A stretch of 64,000 nucleotides of DNA from Siphonodentalium dalli (lineage: Eukaryota; Mollusca; Scaphopoda; Gadilida; Siphonodentaliidae). How positions within the stretch are numbered: the first letter of the stretch is position 1; every line of letters begins with the position of its first letter. A model generated the notes under the pieces. That model was not told the origin of the DNA. It did no database searches and saw nothing but the letters and a program-made list of their open reading frames with translations. Of this stretch, positions 15,411 through 51,410 are shown piece by piece. The DNA lies in contig CP136065.1 in NCBI GenBank assembly GCA_032622095.1, positions 19,456,134 through 19,520,133 of the forward strand, given 5' to 3'. A program made the translations under genes and the position numbers.

Positions 15411-16285
15411 AACACTAGCCGTACCATTCTTCTACAATCAATGAACTCCAAACACCAACACCAACTGTATATTCTTCTAAAATCAATTAATTCCAATCAC
15501 GACAAGTCCTTTTATAAGAAATTTGGGGCGTTCAAACGTCTTGCCACTCACAGTAAACTGACAATAGATCCGTTTGCCGTAATGTCCGGTAGCATATATA
15601 CGTACTATAATGTCCGGTAGCATATATACGTACTACAATGTCCGGTAGAATATATACTTACTTTTACGACTCAGGCTATACTCGGCTGGTTTGTGACGCC
15701 CGTGGATCCGTGACGTCAAGATAACCCTGGAATCGAGAAGACATATCCTGATTTGTTCTGTTTAACTCTTGGAAATGCAAACTTCAAACTAATATACGAG
15801 GGAGTAAGTGTGTCAATACATACAATATTGTAAACGAGGCGGTTTTCAATAAATATACACAGTATGTGACGCCGTATTTATAAAGTTGCAATGGACGTTA
15901 CGATCTAAAACGGTTGGGATATTGAGTTGCATGCTGGTCAAAATAGAAAAGGAAACAATAATATGAGGATATGATCTCCAAATGCCAACGTTCCATTCTT
16001 CTAAAATCAATGAACTCCAAAAACGAACACTAACTGTATATTCTTCTAAGATCAATGAATTCCAATCACCGACACTAACCGTGCATTCTTCTCACATCAA
16101 TGAACTCCAAACATCAACTCTAACCGTACATTTTTCTAACATCAACAATAACCGTACATTCTTCTGACATCAATGAACTACAGCATCAACACTATATTAA
16201 CCTCACATTCTTCTAACAACACTACTAACCATACAATTGTCTAGCAACATCAACACTAACCACGCATTATTCTAACAGCACCCGT
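15410..16285 (-). repeat. Degenerate relatives of the 28-bp array (longer units)
   Basis: Irregular units of about 38-45 bp share CTAACCGTACATTCTTCTAA with the 28-bp array but carry an extra ATCAATGAACTCCAAAC segment. They look like an older part of the same array, separated from it by the inserted retrotransposon sequence at 16290-19125. Confidence 0.75.
15809..15990. repeat. ~180-bp direct repeat, copy 2
   Basis: Second copy of the segment at 15228-15410, with a short deletion after ATGTGAC. The repeat flanks part of the degenerate minisatellite, so the spacing may come from unequal exchange. Confidence 0.85.
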
Positions 16286-19204: not shown

Positions 19205-20575
19205 AGTCTAACATGAACTCTAATCGTACATTCTTCTAACATCCGCAATAATCGTACATTCTTCTAACATCCGCACTAACCATACATTCTTCTAACATCC
19301 GCAATAACCATACATTCTTCTAACATCCGCAATAATCGTACATTCTTCTAACATCCGCAATAATCGTACATTCTTCTAACATCCGCAATAATCGAACATT
19401 CTTCTAACATCCGCAATAATCGAACATTCTTCTAACATCCGCAATAATCGTACATTCTTCTAACATCCGCAATAATCGTACATTCTTCTAACATCCGCAA
19501 TAATCGTACATTCTTCTAACATCCGCAATAATCGTACATTCTTCTAACATCCGCAATAATCGTACATTCTTCTAACATCCGCAATAATCGTACATTCTTC
19601 TAACATCCGCAATAATCGTACATTCTTCTAACATCCGCAATAATCGTACATTCTTCTAACATCCGCAATAATCGTACATTCTTCTAACATCCGCAATAAT
19701 CGTACATTCTTCTAACATCCGCAATAATCGTACATTCTTCTAACATCCGCACTAACCATACATTCTTCTAACATCCGCAATAACCATACATTCTTCTAAC
19801 ATCCGCAATAATCGTACATTCTTCTAACATCCGCAATAATCGTACATTCTTCTAACATCCGCAATAATCGAACATTCTTCTAACATCCGCAATAATCGAA
19901 CATTCTTCTAACATCCGCAATAATCGTACATTCTTCTAACATCCGCAATAATCGTACATTCTTCTAACATCCGCAATAATCGTACATTCTTCTAACATCC
20001 GCAATAATCGTACATTCTTCTAACATCCGCAATAATCGTACATTCTTCTAACATCCGCAATAATCGTACATTCTTCTAACATCCGCAATAATCGTACATT
20101 CTTCTAACATCCGCAATAACCATACATTCTTCTAACATCCGCAATAATCGTACATTCTTCTAACATCCGCAATAATCGTACATTCTTCTAACATCCGCAA
20201 TAATCGAACATTCTTCTAACATCCGCAATAATCGAACATTCTTCTAACATCCGCAATAATCGTACATTCTTCTAACATCCGCAATAATCGAACATTCTTC
20301 TAACATCCGCAATAACCGAACATTCTTCTAACATCTACAATAACCGTACATTCTTCTAACATCTACACTAACCGTACATTCTTCTAACATCTACACTAAC
20401 CATACATTCTTCTAACATCTACACTAACCGTACAATATTCTGACATAAACAATAACAGTTCATTTCTCTAACAACAACAACAACAACAATAACCGTACAT
20501 TCTGCTAACATCAATTAACACTACCGGTCTATTCTTCTAATTCCATCACCAACAGTACATTCTTCTAACACCGCA
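19205..20575 (-). repeat. 28-bp minisatellite derived from a RET splice-donor junction
   Basis: About 45 tandem units of 28 bp. On the minus strand the unit matches the end of the exon at 21901 plus the first intron bases at about 24 of 28 positions, and copies at 20338-20440 match at about 26 of 28. Those copies keep the GTTAGT donor hexamer, while most units carry ATTATT instead. A 17-unit higher-order period of 476 bp is visible (the variant ACTAACCATAC recurs at 19275 and 19751). Confidence 0.93.
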
Positions 20576-21837: not shown

Positions 21838-21900
21838 ACTAACAGTATATTCCTCTAACACCAATTAACCTAACTGCATTATTCTAACATTAACACTAAC
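21838..21900 (-). repeat. Degenerate array units abutting the RET donor site
   Basis: Immediately beyond the exon end are two or three poor copies of the 28-bp unit (TCTAACAC, TTCTAACATTAACACTAAC). They link the exon to the main array, now separated by inverted-repeat elements at 20575-21835. Confidence 0.75.
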
Positions 21901-22000
21901 CGTACATTCCTCTAACATCCTATCGAAGATGTTGGCCAGTTGTTGGAATGTTGGTCTGTTAATCGGCTCACTCTTCCAGCATTTCTGCATGACGGCATAG
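21901..22000 (-). CDS. RET: RET exon (100 nt): alphaH-alphaI, end of kinase domain, with duplicated acceptor
   Basis: The exon encodes YAVMQKCWKSEPINRPTF, then QQLANIFDRMLEECT. CW...P..RP.F is the conserved kinase subdomain XI. The acceptor used here is TTTACAG at 22007-22001, and the donor GTTAGT at 21900-21895 leaves phase 0. An upstream copy of the acceptor with the first codons lies 48 nt away (22048), so a 148-nt version with 16 extra residues is possible and open. If the donor is not used, the frame stops a few residues later near 21865. The tail of RET that normally follows was not found below this point. Confidence 0.9.
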
Positions 22001-22076
22001 CTGTAAACCGGATTACATATGATATAATATTTCTGCATGACGGCATAGCTGTAAACCGGATTACATATGATATAGT
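21981..22076 (-). repeat. 48-bp tandem duplication of the last exon's 3' splice site
   Basis: Positions 21981-22026 and 22029-22074 are identical, with a 48-bp period. On the minus strand each copy contains the pyrimidine-poor tract, the acceptor GGTTTACAG and the first seven codons of the exon (YAVMQK). The period is a multiple of three and has no stop. Confidence 0.95.
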
Positions 22077-28458: not shown

Positions 28459-28486
28459 AAAAAAAACGTTTTTTCCAAGAACTAAC

Positions 28487-28704
28487 CTTGATTTCGGATA
28501 GATACCTCATACCCTTCGATATCTGCCACGCAAACCCCATAAGGTCTCGCTGTCGAAGCAGTCTCTCTGATTCTTCTCTCTCGTTCTCATACTTCACGCT
28601 GTCCCACGAGGCACCTTTAATATTCCGGTCCTGCATTCTGCATTTCCTGAGGTAGGACCTAAGTGAGCCCCGCTCACAATATTCAACTATCACATATATA
28701 GGGC
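28487..28704 (-). CDS. RET: RET exon: hinge, kinase insert and alphaE
   Basis: The 72 codons start at the hinge (IVEYCERGSLRSYLRK). A kinase insert of about 30 charged residues (KYENEREESERLL) follows, then MGFAWQISKGMRYLSEIK of alphaE. The flanks match RET closely, and the insert differs in sequence, as it does among vertebrate RETs. The acceptor is TTGCAG at 28710-28705 and the donor GTTAGT at 28486-28481. Phase is 1 in (completing a glycine codon) and 0 out. A TTAA-type MITE ends at 28458, only 22 nt past the end of the donor hexamer. Confidence 0.95.
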
Positions 28705-28759
28705 CTGCAATGACGATATTAAGGTGAAATAAAGCACCAATTTGGTTGAATCATTACCT

Positions 28760-30174: not shown

Positions 30175-30865
30175 GCCCCTCTATACGTGCGGGTATATGC
30201 ATGCATTCCACAAGAGTTTGATTATTTCCGGGCGTATACATTCCCCTAAGAATTTGATTATGTTCGGGAGTATGCGTGCCCTAATAGTTTGATTACTTCC
30301 GGGTGTACACATGCCTCTATGAGTTTTCTTACTTCCGGGTGTATGCATCCCCCATATTATTATGATTAAATTCGGGTGTATGCATTCTGCTAAGAGTTTG
30401 ATTACTTGCGGGTGTATGCATGCCCCTATGAGTTAAATTACGTCCGGGTGTACACATGCCTCTAAGAGTTTGATTACTTCCGGGTGTATGCATCCCCCCT
30501 AAGATTATGATTAAATTCGGGTGTATGCATTCCGCTAAGAGTTTGATTACTTGCGGGTGTACGCGTGCCCCTAGGAGTTAAATTACGTTCGGGTGTATGC
30601 ATGCCCTTAAGAGATTGGTTACTTCCGGATGTACGCATGCCGCTAAGAGTTTGATTACTTCCGGATGCATGCATGCCGCGAAGAGTTTGGTTACTTCCGG
30701 ATGTATGCATGCACCTAAGTGTTTGATTACGTTCGGGTGTATGTATTCTCCTAATATTTTGACTACGTTCTGGTGTATGCATGCACCTAAGTGTTTGATT
30801 ACGTTCTGGTGTATGTATTCTCCTGATAGTTTGACTACGTTCTGGTGTATGCATGCCGTCTGTTC
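30175..30865 (-). repeat. Second block of the exon-derived 36-bp minisatellite
   Basis: About 19 further units of the same array, more diverged (HPEVIKLLAAC and similar on the minus strand). They are separated from the main block by the LTR element (31146-34797) and a 280-bp non-repetitive segment. Both blocks lie in the same 7.3-kb RET intron. Confidence 0.9.
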
Positions 30866-31120
30866 TGAAAATAAGCTCATATTGAACTTATTTAAAAAAC
30901 ACAAATAACCCCATGTCGGCATTATTTAAATCTGAATTACGCTCTATATTAACCTAAATTACCCAGATGTACGCTCTTTATAATGTGCTTTCACTGTGGC
31001 CCGCGTCATAAAAAGGAATAACGGTATAATTCCAATATGGGCTTATTTCAGAATCAAATAAGTCCAAAATGAACATATGTGAATATATCGATCCAACATG
31101 AACCTATTTCCACGAGGCTA

Positions 31121-31145
31121 TGTCGATGCATGGCTCTAACATTTT
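31121..31145 (-). repeat. Remnant of a 36-bp array unit cut by the LTR element
   Basis: The bases GATGCATGGCTCTAACATTTT left of the LTR element align to the same part of a unit that resumes as TTTTGATTAAGTTCGG at 34798. The element therefore landed inside an existing array unit. Confidence 0.8.
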
Positions 31146-31596
31146 TGTTATAGGTGCCGTTTTTATCTGTTTTAGTACACCGCGGTTGTATATATTCTTG
31201 TATGTATCATGATACTTGCGCGCATCCTGCTTTGTTATTTCAGCCTTTTGTGGGTTAACTGAAATGTGTGTCAGTGTGTATGCGCGTGAGAGTGTGAACG
31301 ATAGTGTCACCTGCACTCTGATTAGCACTCACCTGTTACTGGCGGGAAAATTAGCGCGGTCTGGGGGCAGTCCCTAATTAGTTTTCGAAATGGTCAGACG
31401 TAGTATTTTGGATTACCCATTCTAGATATATATAATGAAATGCAGATTTCATTTTATGGAGTATCTTTAATGGTTTTTAATACTGACTGCTGTGATATGA
31501 TTATTATGTTGATGCCTTTATTTTAAATACACTTTATTAACCCTTTAATGTGTGTGTTGGAGTTACTATATCTACGTTAAATCCAGCCGTACAACA
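31146..31596 (+). repeat. 5' LTR (451 bp)
   Basis: TG...CA ended and collinear with 34347-34797, with few differences over the parts compared. It contains a TATA-like stretch (TATATATAATGAAATG around 31428-31443). Confidence 0.92.
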
Positions 31597-33029
31597 AACT
31601 TGGCGCCCGATATGGGACTAATAAAGTGTAATTCAGTGGCGATTCTAGAGAACGAGTTGGTACCCGATTTATTTCGCACAGAAAATCACCACGGGATTAA
31701 CACCATCGCGGAAGGAATCGGCCCTTGTGACTGTGTTGCTGCGCGTGTAGCCTAAATAGCCGTGCAAAATTCTATATGTGAGAACTACAGATCCGCCTGA
31801 AGATACTCGTTAATATGGTGCACAAAGACTGTTCAAAGATCACAGCATGTATGGATATTCTATGTGTGGTAACTTCAGAGCTTCAGAATCAGAGACCATT
31901 GAGGTAGGGCGAAGTTTTCATACACCCCTCCCATTGACTGAGAAACCCGGATCTTATTTCTCGGACACCGGTGGCGAGTGACGTCACATCTATAAATAAA
32001 TTTGGTTTCCCTGATTTGAACAGATCGGCGGAAAAATATGTCAACACAATTTTTGCCACTTGAAAAGCAACTATTTATTCAAGTTTTACATTTTGTACTA
32101 CTATCAGTGCATTGGTGAGACGGAGTGAGGTATTCATTATAGCCGGCTTCGCGTTAAAACTGTTGCGTAGGCCTACCATTCGCGTTCGCGACCTTCAAAA
32201 CGTGGAACTTCGATCCATATTAAACTTTGGGATACCGTCGCTTGTCGATTCATTGAGATTTGTTCGTCGTTGGAAACTGATGACTTTCATTTCCTTGACA
32301 ATATTTCTCTCAGTTTATAGGTGCTATGAAATAGACACTAAATAATCTTGACTAATAATATTCAAATGTATTTATGATAGTTATTCCATTATTGTCGTAT
32401 TGAAAATATGATGTGATTTGACAGTCAACATTTTTTGAATGTCATTGTTGGTCATAAAGTGATATTTCATATTTGTATGGTGATTTGTTATATGGTGGTA
32501 AATTCCATTCATGGAATTTTTTATATACTAAATTATTGATGTTATTCAGGTAGGCGATATGTGCGTCTGACCAACTTATCGTTAGTAATAGTATATAGGT
32601 TTAAATTCAAAATTTTCCACATTTTTTGGGCCAATTTGGATTTGGCTATTTTTTTTGCCGTCTTTTTATTTCCGCACCAACTAACATGGGTCTCATGCAG
32701 TTTAGCTCCACTTTTCTCCCATGTAGGTTAGCAGTTTTCATTTAACCATTTTCAGTAAGTAAACTTGTGAGTGTGTTTGGTGTAAGTAGTCGCTAGGCGT
32801 GTGAAAATCTTTGTGCATTAGGCTCTCACCCCTGCACCTTTTCTTGCCCTTGTGTGTTTGTTCGAGAATTGCATGATTGTGTTTTGAGTTATTATATGTC
32901 AGCTGCGCTTGCGTCTTTGAAAACTTTCAGAACTATTTAATTGCAATGGTGACGATATTGTCACACTTAATATTTATAACTCAGTTGTCGTTAATTTTTT
33001 TTTTTTTATATTTATTGTCCGTGGCCGCA

Positions 33030-33624
33030 GTACCTTGAGAATAGGAAACTTGTTTCAACTTCAACTAGAGTTTTTTAACTCTACTCAGAAGCCAGGTGAG
33101 TCGGTTACTGCTTTTGGTTGCAGACTAGAATCATTTTTGAAGCTGCAATCGATAGTGGAAATGTGGAGCGCTACGCCAAGAATGACCTGCTCCGGCATAA
33201 GTTCTTCTCGTCTCTACATTCTGAGCAGTTGAAGAGTCAGACTCGTCATAAATATGACCGTATATCAGACTTCGACATGTTGCTGCGAGAAATTCGTATA
33301 GTGGAAAAAGAGCTTAGCGTCCACTCCACTTCTGGTTCTTTGAGGAATAAAGCCCAGCAACATGCATCGCAGACAGATACAACACCAGACAGGTTTGGTG
33401 TGACGGAGAAGAAGTTCGATAGGAAACTTGATGATTTGGAGAAGCGACTGGATACTAAGATCGACCAGAAGCTCGACTTGATTTTGCAGCACCTCGATCG
33501 GACTGCAGTTTCCCAACCACCACCACAGTCTAACTTTGATTTTGGACAAGGACATGGAAACTACACACCACAGAGAGGTTCGGGTTTCGGTCGTGGACGA
33601 GGGCCTGGTAGGAATTTCAGCTGA
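33030..33624 (+). pseudogene. gag-like reading frame of the LTR element, with a frameshift
   Basis: The frame from 33118 gives a capsid-like helical segment (LLRHKFFSSL, then FDMLLREIRIVEKEL), a charged coiled-coil-like region (KKFDRKLDDLEKRLDTKID) and a glycine/arginine-rich end (RGSGFGRGRGPGR). The preceding capsid part (EFFNSTQKPGESVTAFGCRL, from about 33059) is in another frame, so a frameshift lies near 33115-33140. The end resembles an RGG-type nucleic-acid-binding tail in place of a CCHC knuckle. This fits Ty3/gypsy-type Gag by pattern only; the family is not proven. Confidence 0.7.
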
Positions 33625-34346
33625 AGATCCAGTAATGATCAAAACCTACGGAGGTACCAGTTCACGAGAAATGTCCTTTGTAAATCCAGGTATCTCATGG
33701 GATAGTATTGTGCTGCTTTCTCATATTTTAATCTTATTGTGTATTTATTATTATGTAATGACTTGTTATACACACTGTCTCATTCCGGTCAAAGGCCAAG
33801 TAAGATTATTTCAGCTGAAGACCCAGTGCCGTGTAAAAACTGACTGATGTTCCAGCTATGTAAGAAATTTTCCTTTCCAGGTTCAACTTTGGGGATAGTA
33901 TCGTATATACTATTCCACTATTATATAACCACATTCCTTCATTAGTATTTCATGTCAGATATTTGATTTAGAGATAAATCAATTTTATTTGAGCATATTA
34001 ACTTTGCAGAGACTGAACCTATTGCAGAAATGACTTGTAGGTTTTATTTCAGCCTCTCGTGTTAAACTTGTACTACAGATTCCTCTACATGTTACCAGCT
34101 GTAATTATTAGATATTTCATATCTGATACCCGGTTTTTCATTGGATTTCAGGTTGTACAGTTTCAGCAATAATCTGTACTAGTATACATGCTGCCACTTT
34201 TGCAGCTACCGGTTGCAGATTTTGACTTGCAGTTTATTTCAGCATTTACTATTGTAAGATGGTGATATTCTCAATGGAAATGCCTACCTAGATTGTTCAT
34301 ACATTTCAGTGAATGTCAGGAGCCATTCTTCACCTGGGGTGGTGAA

Positions 34347-34797
34347 TGTTATAGGTGCCGTTTTTATCTGTTTCAGTACACCGCGGTTGTATATATTCTG
34401 TTATGTATCATGATACTTGCGCGCATCCTGCTTTGTTATTTCAGCCTTTTGTGGGTTAACTGAAATGTGTGTCAGTGTGTATGCGCGTGAGAGTATGAAC
34501 GATAGTGTCACCTGCACTCTGATTAGCACTCACCTGTTACTGGCGGGAAAATTAGCGCGGTATGGGGGGCTGTCACTAATTAGTTTTCGAAATGGTCAGA
34601 CGTAGTATTTTGGATTACCAATTCTAGATATATATAATGAAATGCAGTTTTTCATTTATGGAGTATCTTTAATGTTTTTAATACTGACTGTTGTGATATG
34701 ATTATTATGTTGATGCCTTTATTTTAAATACACTTTATCAACCCTTTAATTTGTGTGTTGGAGTTACTATATCTACGTTAAATCCAGCCGTACAACA
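34347..34797 (+). repeat. 3' LTR (451 bp)
   Basis: Same length as the 5' LTR and collinear with it. The small number of differences (for example TCTGTTTCAG here, TCTGTTTTAG in the 5' LTR) suggests a fairly recent insertion. Counting the differences would date it. Confidence 0.92.
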
Positions 34798-36050
34798 TTT
34801 TGATTAAGTTCGGGGGCATGCACGCCGCTAAGAGTTTGATTACTTCCGGGTGTACACATGCCCCATATAGTTTTATTACGTTCGGGTGTATGCATGTCCC
34901 TATGATTTTTACTACGTTCGGGTGTATGGATGTCCCTAATATTTTTTACTAAGTTCGGGTATATGCATGTCCCTAATATTTTGATTGCGTTCGGGTATAT
35001 GCATGTCCCTAATATTGTTATTACGTTCGGGTATATGCATGTCCCTAATATTTGGATTATGTTCGGGTATATGCATGTCCCTAATATTTTGATTCTGTTC
35101 GGGTATATGCATGTCCCTAATATTTTGATTACGTTCGGGTTATCCATGTCCCTAATATTTTGATTAAGTTCGGGTGTTTTCATGCCCCATAGAGTTTTAT
35201 TACGTTCGGGTGTATGCATGCCCCTATGATTGTTTAATAAGTTCGGTAGTATGCATGTCTCTAATATTTTTACTACGTTCGGGTGTATGCATGTCCCTAA
35301 TATTTTGATTATGTTCGGGTATATGCATGTCCCTAATATTTTGATTCCGTTCGGGTATATGCATATCCCTAATATTTTTACTTTCGGGTGTATGCATGTC
35401 CCTGACAATTTGATTAGGTTCAGGTGTTTGCATGTTCCTAAGTGTTTTATTTCGATCTGGTGTATGCATGCCCCTGTGAGTTTTATTTCGATCTGGTGTA
35501 TGCATGCCCCTGAGAGTTTTATTTCGATCGGGTGTATGCATGCACCTAAGAGTTGCATTACGTTCGGGTGCAAGCATGTCATTATTTTGATTACGTTCGG
35601 GTGTATGCATGTCATTATTTTGATTACGTTCGGGTATATGCCAGCCCCGAATAGTTTCATTTCGATCGGGTGTATGTATGCTCTAAGAGCTTGATTACGT
35701 TCTGGTGTATGCATGCCCTTGAGATATTGATTACGTTCGGGTATATGCATGCCTCTAGGAGGTTGATTATGATCGGATGTATGCATGCCCATAATATGTT
35801 GCTCACGAATGGGGTGTGCATTTCCCTAATTGGATGACCACGAATGGGGTGTGCATGTCCCTGATATGTTGACCACGAATGGGGTGTGCATGCCCCTAAT
35901 AGGTTGACCACGAATGGGGTGTGCATGCCCATAATAGGAAGACCACGAATGGGGTGTGCATGCCCCTAATATGTTGACTACGAATGGGGTGTGCATACCG
36001 CCGCATGCATGCCCCAATGAGTTTGAATACGTTCGGTGTAAGTAATTCTC
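34798..36050 (-). repeat. 36-bp minisatellite derived from the RET alphaC-beta4 exon
   Basis: About 34 tandem units, mostly 36 bp with some of 33-39 bp. Read on the minus strand, units encode variants of HPNVIKLLGACI in the same frame as the exon at 36053-36163 (for example YPNIIKILGTCI). Because 36 is a multiple of three, the array stays open over long stretches in more than one frame, so long minus-strand open frames here (34773-35792) are by-products and not genes. Units at 35790-36005 form a subfamily with a CACGAATGGGG variant. Confidence 0.95.
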
Positions 36051-36052
36051 AC

Positions 36053-36163
36053 CATCCTCGTTTATGCATGCCCCTAAGAGTTTGATTACGTTTGGGTGTT
36101 TGACTTCTTGTAGCAGATGGAATTCTGATATGAGATCTTCTGAGTCTGTCCCGTGTGCATAAT
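36053..36163 (-). CDS. RET: RET exon: alphaC helix and beta4, source of the 36-bp minisatellite
   Basis: This exon encodes EDLISEFHLLQEVKHPNV, in which the E of SEF is the alphaC glutamate that pairs with the beta3 lysine, then IKLLGACINED of beta4/beta5. Vertebrate RET has the same block with small changes. The acceptor is TTCAG at 36168-36164 and the donor GTGAGA at 36052-36047, phase 1 in and 1 out. The stretch 36064-36098 is almost identical to the unit of the tandem array that starts a few bases beyond the donor and runs to 34798. If the donor is skipped, the frame stays open to about 35826, through array units. Confidence 0.95.
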
Positions 36164-37205: not shown

Positions 37206-37260
37206 GGCCTGTGGAAATACTAGATGATCTGTACTGGCTGTAAACTATTCTCCTTCTCAC

Positions 37261-37411
37261 CTTTTAGCATCTTAACAGCTACCGTAACCTCCCCACTGGA
37301 ACCGCTTAAACCTTTAGCTGTTGCCTTGACAACCATCCCGAATTCTCCTTTCCCCAGAACGTCTCCTAAGGCAAGGTTCTCTCTTGGAAATTTCCATCGA
37401 TTGATAACGAC
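37261..37411 (-). CDS. RET: RET exon: kinase N-lobe, glycine loop and beta3 lysine
   Basis: The exon encodes the start of the kinase domain. [11 protein letters not shown] matches the RET-type entry, followed by the nucleotide-binding loop GKGEFG with its following V, the KATAKGL stretch, and VAVKMLK with the catalytic beta3 lysine. Every residue expected for an active N-lobe is present. The acceptor is CGACAG at 37417-37412, the donor GTGAGA at 37260-37255. Phase is 0 in and 1 out. A 420-bp foldback element lies about 55 nt downstream of the donor. Confidence 0.95.
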
Positions 37412-37469
37412 CTGTCGAAACATGAGGACAGTTATTCGTTTGGGCGACTATTTATTTGTGATGTAGATA

Positions 37470-46137: not shown

Positions 46138-46383
46138 GTTGAGTGCAGTCCTGTGGACATATTCTAGGGTCGAGCGTCTCCACCGCGTCACATTTCTTAT
46201 CCGGGCACGTTAGTGTATTTGGAGAACACGTGGCATACTTCGCAGTCATTCTCGTCGGCGCCTGGTTTTCTCGCCATGAACAAAACCCCTCCTCCGCCCC
46301 GAAACCACAGCCCTGCGTGCAGTCGTTTCTGTTCTTGCTCACAGCACAACTCACACCCGGCGACGGGGATTTTAGTGTCCCAT
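46138..46383 (-). CDS. RET: RET exon: cysteine-rich domain, first part
   Basis: This exon encodes 81 codons plus split codons and is the strongest evidence that the gene is RET. It contains SCAVSK, FCSWRENQ, YATCSPNTLTCPDKKCD, AVET and ICPQDC, a nearly unbroken match to the RET membrane-proximal cysteine-rich domain, which binds ligand/co-receptor and whose cysteines pair in disulphides. The acceptor is GTAG at 46386-46384 and the donor GTACGT at 46137-46132. Phase is 1 in, 1 out. The upstream intron (8,245 nt) holds the 54-bp tandem array, a LINE tail and a MITE. Confidence 0.95.
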
Positions 46384-46759
46384 CTACGAAATAGATCGAA
46401 AATATAGATTATAAGAATTACTTCGAAGAACTCTCAATTTCCGAGTCATTCAGCTACACGTATGTGTGATCTAGTTCACCGTCAACTATATAACTGTGTA
46501 CATGTAATACTACGCTCTGTGATCGAAAGCTTACATGTGAAGAAAAATTGGTATCAAATGTGTTATTCATTGTCTAACTATCCATCACAGATATATACGG
46601 CTAAATCATATACATAGACTGAACACAACGCGCTTGTTAAACGTGAATCGTTTATCGAATGCAATATCGCATGTGTATATTTCGAGAGAACGTAGCTCGA
46701 ACGAAATGTAATTCTGCGCGGTCCGCAACGAGTTCGATAACAAATTCGCGATTGTGATG

Positions 46760-49491
46760 CAAGTTTTGTTGTGTATTTATTATACACCGTTGTGTCAGCT
46801 GGGACCTTCATTGATACTATATAGCTACCACTATTGTGATTTACGTCTGTTGAATAACCAGTAATTATCGGGGTATCACCCAACGCGGATCATTGGTGTG
46901 GTGTACGTCATCATTCTTGGCGCCAAAGTAAACACAATAGTTCCTGCTTGTATTCCACTAGAGGTATATTATATGTATTCAATGGCTGGGATTCCGTTGA
47001 ATACATGCTTCTTGTCAATTGGGTGTGGAATAAATGAATGTACATGGTATGTATCGAAACAAATTATAGAATCGGGTTATACGTATTTAATGTTTTGATC
47101 TACATATTATATTCACCCAATTTTATACATGCACTTATGTCATTCAAGGTTTAGACATATATTCGCCCATATGTATACCGTGTACACAGGGTAGTCGTTC
47201 AGGCATTATCCATATATTCCCCCAATTGAATGCAATGTACACAGTACGGTAATTCTGGAATAGCCATAGAATTAGCCAAATGAATACACTGTACCCAGGA
47301 ATGTCGTTCATGCACTAGCCAAGTATTCACCAAATTGAATGCAATGTGCCCAGCTATTCGCCCAGGCATTAGCCATATATTCACCCAATTAAATGCAATT
47401 TACATAGGGCAGTCGTGTAAATTCACCCAAATGAATACAATGTAACCAGGACAGTTGTTCATGCATTAGACATATATTTATCAAATTGAATATTGAATAC
47501 ACTGTACACATGACAGCATTAGACATATATTCACCCAATCGATGTGCAATGTACCCACGATAGTCGTTCGGGTGTTAGTCGTACGTTCGGTTATTCGCCC
47601 AATTGAGTAGAATGTTACTAGGACACTCGGGCATTGGCCACACATTCGCCCAATTGAATATAACGTACACATGCATGGCAGTCGTCTAGGCATAGCCATG
47701 TATTCACCCAATTGAATTCGCTATATCCAGAACATCGTTCAGGCATTAGCCATGTATTCACCCGATTATATACAATGTACACATGGCAGTCGTCCAGGCA
47801 TTAGCCATGTATTCACCCAATTGAATTCGCTGTATCCAGGACATCGTTCAGGTATTAGCCATGTATTCACCCGATTATATGCAATTTACACATGGCATTC
47901 GTTCATGCATTAGCCGTGTATTCACCCAATTGAATTCGCTATATCAAGGACATCGTTCAGGTATTAGCCATGTATTCACCCGATTATATGCAATGTACAC
48001 ATGGCAGTCGTTCATGCATTAGCCATGCATTCACCCAATTGAATTCGCTGTATCCAGGACATCATTCAGGTATTAGCCATGTATTCACCGGATTATATAC
48101 AACGTACACATGTCATTCGTTCATGCATTAGCCATGTATTCACCCAATTGAATTCGCTGTATCCAGGACATCGTTCAGGTATTAGCCATGTATTCACCCG
48201 ATTATATGCAATGTACACATGGCAGTCATTCATGCATTAGCCATGTATTCACCCAATTGAATTCGCTATATCCAGGACATCGTTCAGGTATTAGCCATGT
48301 ATTCACCCGATTAAATGCAATGTACACATGGCAGTCGTTCATGCATTAGCCATGTATTCACCCAATTGAATTCGCTGTATCAAGGACATCGTTCAGGTAT
48401 TAGCCATGTATTCACCCGATTATATGCAATGTACACATGGCAGTCGTTCATGCATTAGCCATGCATTCACCCAATTGAATTCGTTGTATCCAGGATATCA
48501 TTCAGGTATTAGCCATGTATTCACCGGAGTATATACAATGTACACATGTCATTCGTTCAATGCATTAGCCATGTATTCACCCAATTGAATTCTCTGTATC
48601 CAGGACATCGTTCAGGCATTAGCCATGTATTCACCCGATTATATGCAATGTACACATGGCAGTCATTCATGCATTGGCCATGTAATCACCCAATTGAATT
48701 CGCTATATCCAGAACATCGTTCAGGTATTAGCCATGTATTCACCCGATTATATGCAATGTACACATGGCAGTCGTTCATGCATTAGCCATGTATTCACCC
48801 AATTGAATTCGCTGTATCCAGGACATCATTCAGGTATTAGCCATGTATTCATCGGATTATATGCAATGTACACATGTCATTCGTTCATGCATTAACCATC
48901 TATTCACCCAATTGAATTCGCTGTATCCAGGACATCGTTCGGGTATTAGCCATGTATTTACCCGATTATATGCAATGTACACATGGCAGTCGTTCATGCA
49001 TTAGCCATGTATTCACCCAATTGAATTCGCTGTATCCAGGACATCGTTCAGGTATTAGCCATATATTCACCGGAGTGTATACAATATAAAAATGACAGTC
49101 ATCCATGCATTTGCCATGTATTCACCCAATTGAATTCGCTGTATCTAGGACATCCGAGTGTATACAATGTACACATGGCAGTCGTTCATGCATTAGCCAT
49201 ATAATCACCCAATTGAATTCGCTGTATCCAGGACATCGTTCAGGTATTAGCCACATATTCACCGAAGTGTATACAATATAAAAATGACAGTCATCCATGC
49301 ATTAGCCATGTATTCACCCAATTGAATTCGCTGTATCCAGGACACCGTTCAGGTATTAACCATGTATTCACCGGATTATATACAATGTACACATGGCAGT
49401 CGTCCAGGCATTAACCATATATTCACCCAATTTAATACGCTGTAATCAGGACATCGTTCAGGTATTAGCCATGTATTCACCCAAGTTTTGT
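46760..49491. repeat. 2.7-kb tandem duplication, copy 1
   Basis: The segment starting CAAGTTTTGTTGTGTATTTA is repeated 2,732 bp further on at 49492 with few changes over several hundred bases, followed by the same array of ~54-bp units. Confidence 0.88.
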
Positions 49492-51410
49492 TGTGTATTT
49501 ATTATACACCGGTGTGTCAGCTGGGACCTTCATTGATACTATATAGCTACCACTATTGTGATTTAAGTCTGTTGAATAACCAGTAATTATCGGGGTATCA
49601 CCCAACGCGGATCGTTGGTGTGGTGTACGTCATCATTATTGGCGCCAAAGTAAACACAATAGTTCCTGCTTGTATTCCACTAGAGGTATATTATATGTAT
49701 TCAATGGCTGGGATTCCGTTGAATACATGCTTCGTGTCAATTGGGTGTGGAATAAATGAATGTACATGGTATGTATCGAAACAAATTATAGAATCGGGTT
49801 ATACGTATTTAATGTTTTGATCTACATATTATATTCGCCCAATTTTATACATGCACTTATGTCATTCAAGGTTTAGCCATATATTCGCCCATATGTATAC
49901 CGTGTACACAGGGTAGTCGTTCAGGCATTATCCATATATTCCCCCAATTGAATTTAATGTACACAGTACGGTAATTCTGGAATAGCCATATAATTAGCCA
50001 AAATGAATACACTGTACCCAGGAATGTCGTTCATGCACTAGCCAATAATTCACCAAGTTGAATTCAATGTGCCCAGCTATTCGCCCAGGCATTAGCCATA
50101 TATTCACCCAATTAAATGCAAGTTACATAGGACAGTCGTGTCAATTCACCCAAATGAATACAATGTAACCAGGACAGTTGTTCATGTATTAGACATATAT
50201 TTATCAAATTGAATACACTGTACACATGACAGCATTAGACATATATTCACCCAATCGATGTGCAATGTACCCAGGATAGTCGTTCGGGTGTTAGTCGTAT
50301 GTTCAGTTATTCGCCCAATTGAGTAGAATGTTACTAGGACAGTCGTTCAGGCATTGGCCACAGATTCGCCCAATTTAATACAACGTACACATGGCAGTCG
50401 TCTAGGCATAGCCATGTATTCACCCAATTGAATTCGCTATATCCAGAACATCGTTCAGGCATTAGCCATGTATTCACCCGATTATATACAGTGTACACAT
50501 GGCAGTCGTCTAGGCGTTAGCCATGTATTCACCCAATTGAATTCGCTGTATCCAGGACATCGTTCAGGTATTAGCCATGTATTCACCCGATTATATACAA
50601 TGTACACATGGCATTCGCTCATGCATTAGCCATGTATTCACCCAATTGAATTCGCTATATCCAGGACATCGTTCAGGTATTAGCCATGTATTCACCCGAT
50701 TATATGCAATGTACACATGGCAGTCGTTCATGCATTAGCCATGTATTCACCCAATTGAATTCGCTGTATCCAGGACATCATTCAGCTATTAGCCATGTAT
50801 TCACCGGATTATATACAATGTACATATGGCATTCGTTCATGCATTAGCCATGTATTCACCCAATTGAATTCGCTGTATCCAGGACATCGTTCAGGTATTA
50901 GCCATGTATTCACCCGATTATATGCAATGCACACATGGCAGTCGTTCATGAATTAGCCATGTATTCACCCAATTGAATTCGCTGTATCCAGGACATCGTT
51001 CAGGTATTAGCCATATATTCACCGGAGTGTATACAATATAAAAATGACAGTCATCCATGCGTTAGCCATGTATTCACCCAATTGAATTCGATGTATCCAG
51101 GACACCGTTAAGGTATTAACCATGTATTCACCGGATTATATACAATGTACACATGGCAGTCGTCCAGGCATTAACCATATATTCACCAAATTTAATACGC
51201 TGTAATCAGGACATCGTTCATGTATTAGCCATGTATTCACACAAGCAATGTGCAATGTACGTTGTTCGTACCTTAGCCGTATATCCAGTTATTTGCCCAA
51301 TTGAATAGAATGTTACATGGACAGTCGTTCGGGAATTAGACATTTCGTCACCCAATTGAATACGCTGTACCCAGGAAATCGTTCAGGCATTAGTCATGTA
51401 TCTATATCTA
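47110..51410 (-). repeat. ~54/55-bp minisatellite with a 109-bp dimer period
   Basis: Units begin ATTAGCCATGTATTCACCC. Two types alternate: one continues AATTGAATTCGCTGTATCC, the other GATTATATGCAATGTACAC. Together they make a ~109-bp dimer, repeated about 16 times in the first block and about 7 in the second. It lies in the 8.2-kb RET intron. On the minus strand the core TTGGGTGAATACATGGCTAA resembles sequence just past the donor of the 54629 exon. Confidence 0.9.
49492..51245. repeat. 2.7-kb tandem duplication, copy 2 (shorter)
   Basis: Repeats 46760 onward (ATTTATTATACACCGGTGTG and so on) but holds fewer ~54-bp units, so the two copies differ mainly in array length. Confidence 0.88.

Follow-up and report, generated by a model that had tools for sequence, protein, structure and literature searches.

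An intronic minisatellite apparently born from a coding exon of RET in the scaphopod Siphonodentalium dalli

Introduction

In the scaphopod mollusc Siphonodentalium dalli, a minisatellite lies beside a kinase exon of the gene RET, and its 36-bp unit is almost identical to a coding segment of that exon. This arrangement raises the question of which sequence gave rise to the other, and of whether the array does anything for the exon beside which it lies. An earlier reading of the DNA, made from its letters alone (the sequence-only reading), took the exon to be the source and the array to be the product, and suggested that the array could open the way to gene conversion, or to variation in length, at a catalytic exon. 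The window analysed here is a stretch of 64,000 nucleotides (GenBank assembly GCA_032622095.1, contig CP136065.1, positions 19,456,134–19,520,133, forward strand); positions given without a locus name are counted from its first letter.

The RET gene and the source exon

The kinase half of a RET gene lies on the minus strand of the window. The assignment to RET, already made in the sequence-only reading, was borne out by the peptide of the exon in question, for which RET provided the best PDB matches (phmmer, E 3.5e-6), and by eight RET-like kinase exons, collinear and in order from 37399 to 21913, found by tblastn with a human RET kinase probe. The exons around the array are as follows:

37253–37417 (limits approximate), minus strand: upstream RET kinase exon (...VAVKMLK), tblastn match 37262–37399
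36053–36163, minus strand: RET kinase source exon, alphaC to alphaC-beta4 loop/beta4, from phmmer, tblastn and splice signals
36063–36098, minus strand: 36-bp source segment within this exon, coding for HPNVIKLLGACI and ending 10 bp before the donor
28484–28708 (limits approximate), minus strand: RET exon following the array-bearing intron (GPIYVIVEYCERGSLRSYL...), tblastn match 28484–28705

The boundaries of the source exon were read directly from the splice signals of the sequence (acceptor TTCAG/AT, donor GATG/GTGAGA). The exon ends HPNVIKLLGACINED, with 36053 as its last base, and is followed by the array-bearing intron, which extends over about 7.3 kb to the exon at 28484–28708. The source segment, the start of which lies one base away from the 36064 proposed earlier, is a conserved kinase segment, represented in RET by HPHVIKLYGAC in the alignment to the PDB match. 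A search of the animal's genome with the source-exon peptide gave eight matches at E<=10, of which only the exon itself was significant (2e-18; next match, 0.3). A search with molluscan haemocyanin gave no match, which was uninformative as to the phylum.

An open frame at about 46200–46400 may resemble the cysteine-rich extracellular domain of RET. A large array with a 54/109-bp unit, apparently located in an upstream RET intron, occupies 47151–51240, and two similar blocks are found about 2.7 kb apart, around 46.6–47.1 and 49.5–49.8 kb; this array gave no match to the RET exons compared with it.

Extent and composition of the 36-bp array

The minisatellite proved to be real and larger than reported, reaching as far as 30187. 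Its parts, and the elements interrupting it, are listed from the exon outwards:

34798–36038, minus strand: right part of the array, 36-bp units (TRF, cyclic alignment)
35780–35991, minus strand: exon-proximal subfamily with units of about 35 bp (CCCCATTCGTGGTCAAC...; TRF, cyclic alignment)
31146–34797, plus strand: LTR retrotransposon lying within a unit, with LTRs at 31146–31596 and 34347–34797
31121–31145, minus strand: stub of a unit, with the dispersed element on one side and the LTR element on the other, recognised on joining the LTR flanks, which gives unit-like sequence
30858–31120, no strand assigned: dispersed element of about 260 bp, the second interruption of the array, identified from genome matches
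30187–30859, minus strand: left part of the array, with 18 nearly complete units (TRF, cyclic alignment)

TRF described the right part as a 36-bp array at 34797–35801 (28.2 copies) and a 35-bp variant at 35782–35996 (6.1 copies, 86% matches), and placed a second array of the 36-bp unit at 30201–30857, outside the interval covered by the sequence-only reading. By cyclic alignment, the intron following the source exon contains 56 unit segments, end pieces included, 52 of which have at least 33 bases. The array was said to start a few bases past the donor, and the first intronic unit, which carries extra (inserted) bases, does indeed begin at 36038, past 14 intron bases. In the left part, a four-unit block of 145 bp is present twice.

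The consensus of the 56 segments, CACCCGAACGTAATCAAACTCTTAGGGGCATGCATA, translates to HPNVIKLLGACI and is identical to the exon at 35 of 36 positions, the single difference being synonymous. Most of the units translate to variants of this peptide when the homologous minus-strand frame of each is used. On average, a single unit shares 84% identity with the consensus and 81% with the exon, and two units share 73% with each other.

The left and right parts once formed a single array, which an LTR retrotransposon and a dispersed element have split. The LTR retrotransposon is short (3.65 kb). It is flanked by a target duplication, TTTT, and has a primer-binding site, TTGGCGCCC; its two LTRs, of 451 bp each, are about 97% identical (437 matches, 12 mismatches, 4 gap columns). 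Copies of the LTR are dispersed in the genome (at least 40 matches listed, from 317 candidates), as are copies of the second element, with at least 42 matches, on all nine contigs (40 scored of 3195 candidates). Joining the flanks of the LTR element restores a unit-like sequence. As this element interrupts an existing unit, and the pattern and whole-array searches described below found the unit nowhere else, the LTR element entered the array and did not bring it.

The exon as the source of the array

With up to three mismatches allowed, the unit pattern, which at this stringency misses diverged units and detects three intronic ones here, has four matches in the 2.2-Gb assembly, all in the window: the exon, which is the best, and three intronic units. 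The reversed pattern, used as a control at the same stringency over the same 2.2 Gb, gave no match. The whole right array used as a DNA query (2.2 Gb, nine contigs) gave two matches, one to itself and the other, at 74%, to the left array; diverged arrays elsewhere would be detectable by this whole-array search alone, which skips common words, and some stretches of the assembly read N. The same array elsewhere in the genome, with units no closer to the exon than expected by chance, would have spoken against an exon origin, as the sequence-only reading pointed out; the array was instead found at this locus only, and no rotation of 2000 shuffled exon 36-mers matched at more than 23 of 36 positions. 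The unit motif is a conserved kinase segment, which makes the exon the ancestor. The near identity of the consensus to the exon, together with the lack of any other match within three mismatches in the assembly, identifies the exon as the probable source and the array as the product, as had been proposed.

Alternative explanations

It is hardly credible that the array came from elsewhere, as a satellite or as transposon cargo, with the exon resembling it by chance or having been overwritten by it. Transposons are present within the array and tandem repeats are abundant in the window, which would suit such an origin; against it stand the 35/36 identity to a conserved RET motif, the failure of the pattern and whole-array searches to find another copy in the assembly, and the fact that the LTR element breaks a unit instead of carrying the array. 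A satellite from elsewhere is rejected on the pattern, whole-array and exon-peptide searches, within the limits of these searches. Very unlikely, too, is a coding role for the array, as a repeated alternative exon or a read-through extension of RET. The right part has one minus-strand frame open for 342 codons, codon position 2 is the least divergent (0.130, versus 0.191 at position 1 and 0.168 at position 3), and the frame of the exon, when continued into the intron, remains open down to a stop at 35826–35828. This last point had been made in the sequence-only reading and it stands, but the units near the exon are read there in shifted frames, due to the 35-bp units and small indels, and not as HPNVIKLLGACI; the product of intron retention would be a truncated RET, terminated before most of the kinase domain. 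Furthermore, the 73 distinct changes from the consensus (53 nonsynonymous, 17 synonymous and 3 nonsense) match those of a neutral simulation (52.8, 17.8 and 2.4, respectively), as they do without the 35-bp units (51, 15 and 3, versus 50.0, 16.7 and 2.3), the frame is broken by 35-bp units and indels, and all three minus-strand frames of the left part contain stops (5, 20 and 12). Nonsense changes occur a little less often than expected (6 of 302, versus 4 of 108 possible changes; P 0.07). Taken with the low divergence at position 2 and the open frame, this leans towards coding constraint, which would be faint at most; these features are not read as selection, because no excess of synonymous over replacement change was found in the units. 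We take the 342-codon frame to be an expected vestige of the coding founder, few codons of which lie a single step away from a stop. The array as coding sequence is rejected on the spectrum of changes.

There is a small chance that the array works together with the exon, as a conversion donor, a recombination hotspot, or a selected intronic splicing or enhancer element. Minisatellites are generally unstable, and exon-like sequence has been kept beside the donor here, the first intronic unit being identical to the exon in 91% of aligned columns. However, the next seven units are only 69–81% identical to the exon, and units farther from the exon are no less identical to it (Spearman 0.21, P 0.14). 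Consensus identity to the exon is highest in the far left part (34/36), lower in the right part (32/36) and lowest in the adjacent 35-bp subfamily (28/36), and local copies occur more often in non-coding DNA than at exons. The units do resemble their neighbours. Pairwise distances were used in place of a unit tree, 36 columns being judged too few for a tree, and mean divergence rose from 0.198 between adjacent units to 0.284 at a separation of 30 units and 0.341 at 40; none of 2000 permutations gave neighbours as alike. This likeness of neighbours, with divergence rising with separation, is as unequal exchange or slippage would give. Continuing conversion between exon and units is not indicated, because the changes fit the neutral expectation, neighbours are alike and most of the units near the exon match it poorly. 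The special role in conversion or length variation at a catalytic exon that the sequence-only reading had envisaged is therefore not supported. Nor is the local duplication of exon pieces peculiar to this exon; it occurs at other exons and is more frequent in non-coding DNA.

Proposed history of the array

The preferred reading is local duplication of exon sequence, followed by tandem turnover and drift, and this account is very probable. A piece of the RET kinase exon of about 36 bp, or 12 codons, would have been copied locally into the following intron, perhaps by template switching or slippage. Head-to-tail growth, through unequal exchange or slippage during replication, would then have produced an array of at least 50 units. 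These units, being dispensable for the protein, would have drifted, the exon copy presumably being held by purifying selection, and because the units drift while the exon is held, the exon sequence can still be retrieved as the consensus of the units. The LTR retrotransposon and the dispersed element then inserted into the array and divided it. Most probably the array itself serves no function, and it is presumably neutral for splicing. Short-word BLAST found no convincing copy in the intron of the exon tail plus donor or of the 5' part of the exon (only 8–9-base matches outside the unit), and the founding step is, thus, not visible; no convincing remnant of a larger exon-plus-donor copy, as a possible seed, came out of this search. 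The case also suggests that arrays of this kind may be annotated as exons by gene predictors.

Further duplications at another RET exon

A RET exon further downstream is the source of two further local duplications:

21902–22013, minus strand: RET kinase exon YAVMQKCWKSEPINRPTFQQLANIFDRMLEECT, tblastn match 21913–21999, limits from splice-like signals
21981–22074, minus strand: 48-bp duplication in two copies (TRF, 100% matches), spanning the acceptor of this exon
19221–20446, minus strand: 28-bp array of 43.8 copies (TRF), the unit of which spans the end plus donor of this exon

The units of the 28-bp array are 82–91% identical, over 42–44 bp, to the exon end plus its GTTAGT donor. With up to two mismatches allowed, the 28-bp pattern has 46 matches in the genome, all within the window, one of which is the exon end itself. 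Relatives of this array, from the same exon end plus donor, are found at 20321–20570 and 16026–16277. In the 48-bp duplication, the acceptor TTTACAG/CTATGCC has been copied at 100%.

Local copies of exons across the genome

Local copies were scored as ungapped same-strand diagonals within 4.5 kb, exons being flanked by 30 bp, with a threshold of 29/36; the maximum score in 36 shuffled neighbourhoods (kinase/RET set) was 25. The kinase sample comprised 22 short exon-like matches picked from 147, plus four from the exon-peptide search, in 18 pieces, and the chaperonin sample consisted of 25 of 53 matches, falling in 11 pieces; ten RET exons were scanned, a set that does not include an open frame near 54.7 kb. 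Local copies were found for 3 of 26 kinase matches and 2 of 10 RET exons, versus 87 of 250 random non-coding segments, and for 4 of 25 chaperonin matches, versus 37 of 150. Exons thus have fewer local copies than the surrounding non-coding DNA: 9 of 61 versus 124 of 400 in the pooled data, with a Fisher P of 0.009 that serves as a guide only, as the controls overlap each other and share loci. Without RET, 7 of 51 exon-like matches have local copies, 'exons' in this set being the limits of profile matches rather than annotated exons; stop codons occur in 4 of the kinase and 3 of the chaperonin matches (7 of 51), 4 chaperonin matches lie below the family cut-off, and none of these gave a local match. 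At a threshold of 30, the counts were 5/36 (kinase and RET) versus 80/250, and 3/25 (chaperonin) versus 34/150. An earlier BLAST version (3/26 exons, 1/10 RET exons, 118/312 non-coding segments, 58/190 window segments) was superseded, having missed the adjacent 48-bp tandem copy and truncated the RET exon near 21900.

The individual cases differ in what has been copied. A 37-bp coding piece of the alphaC exon of another kinase has a single copy 337 bp away, at 97% identity and apparently intronic (L016:4742-5115), and this plausibly represents a seed stage through which the RET array could have passed. Acceptor-spanning repeats (ATTCAG/GAATACCTC...) precede an HRDLAA kinase exon at two loci (L003:4800-5090 and L004:4550-4740), which are apparent paralogues and, therefore, probably reflect one event. 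Chaperonin acceptors have been copied upstream at three loci, 155 bp (L019), 55 bp (L023) and 83 bp (L027) away, and at the last of these the exon end has also been copied 48 bp downstream. At L005, the exon flank has repeat matches below the scan threshold. At C2:149826765-150592731, many kinase frames, each of about 281 aa and scoring nearly the same, are packed into less than 1 Mb.

The local copying and tandem turnover proposed for RET would act in the same way in non-coding DNA, reaching pieces and boundaries of exons in other genes. It is possible, although we advance the idea only tentatively, that local copying throughout the genome keeps placing exon or boundary pieces of about 30–60 bp in the introns of this lineage, some of which become arrays, such that introns would hold fossil records of exons and a supply of decoys. 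If this were true, the consensus of an array would be an internal outgroup recording the past sequence of its exon, and new splice sites or introns would have decoy exon sequence to draw on outside cephalochordates too. The local copies at about one in seven of the sampled exon-like matches outside RET are the part worth following.

Comparison with known systems

In a literature search judged by titles and the starts of abstracts, no other exon-born intronic minisatellite was named. In its unit length, the similarity of neighbouring units, its higher-order block and its drift, the RET array resembles ordinary intronic minisatellites (VNTRs), from which it differs in that its unit has an identifiable ancestor: coding sequence that is conserved, belongs to the same gene and lies only a few bases off. 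With coding minisatellites, such as mucin repeats, it shares a period that is a multiple of three and an open frame in the founder, but the RET array is intronic and has no excess of synonymous change.

The amphioxus mirages are described as tandem repeats spanning exon/intron boundaries, in Adh3, globins, troponin C and PGBD5 among the genes mentioned in the accounts drawn on here; they reportedly leave splicing undisturbed and vary in length, and it has been suggested that new introns could arise by way of them (PMC3087553, PMC3902484). As in mirages so described, minisatellite-like copies of exon-derived sequence lie in the RET intron beside an intact exon, and neighbouring units have been homogenised (PMC3087553, PMC3902484). 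Unlike the boundary-spanning units of these accounts, the 36-bp RET unit is wholly coding and has no splice site, stopping short of the donor. The 28-bp array and the 48-bp duplication of RET do span exon boundaries, as read from splice signals, as do several of the repeats in other genes, and these are closer to the published description. The 36-bp array, measured against the same accounts, works like a mirage but is a variant, its unit crossing no boundary. The explanation is ordinary in kind, consisting of local duplication, tandem turnover and drift, and the array is probably neutral. The interest of the locus lies in a minisatellite traced to a nearby source of known function, a fixed reference against which its birth, drift and homogenisation can be followed; it extends the mirage idea to a wholly coding unit, in an animal other than amphioxus.
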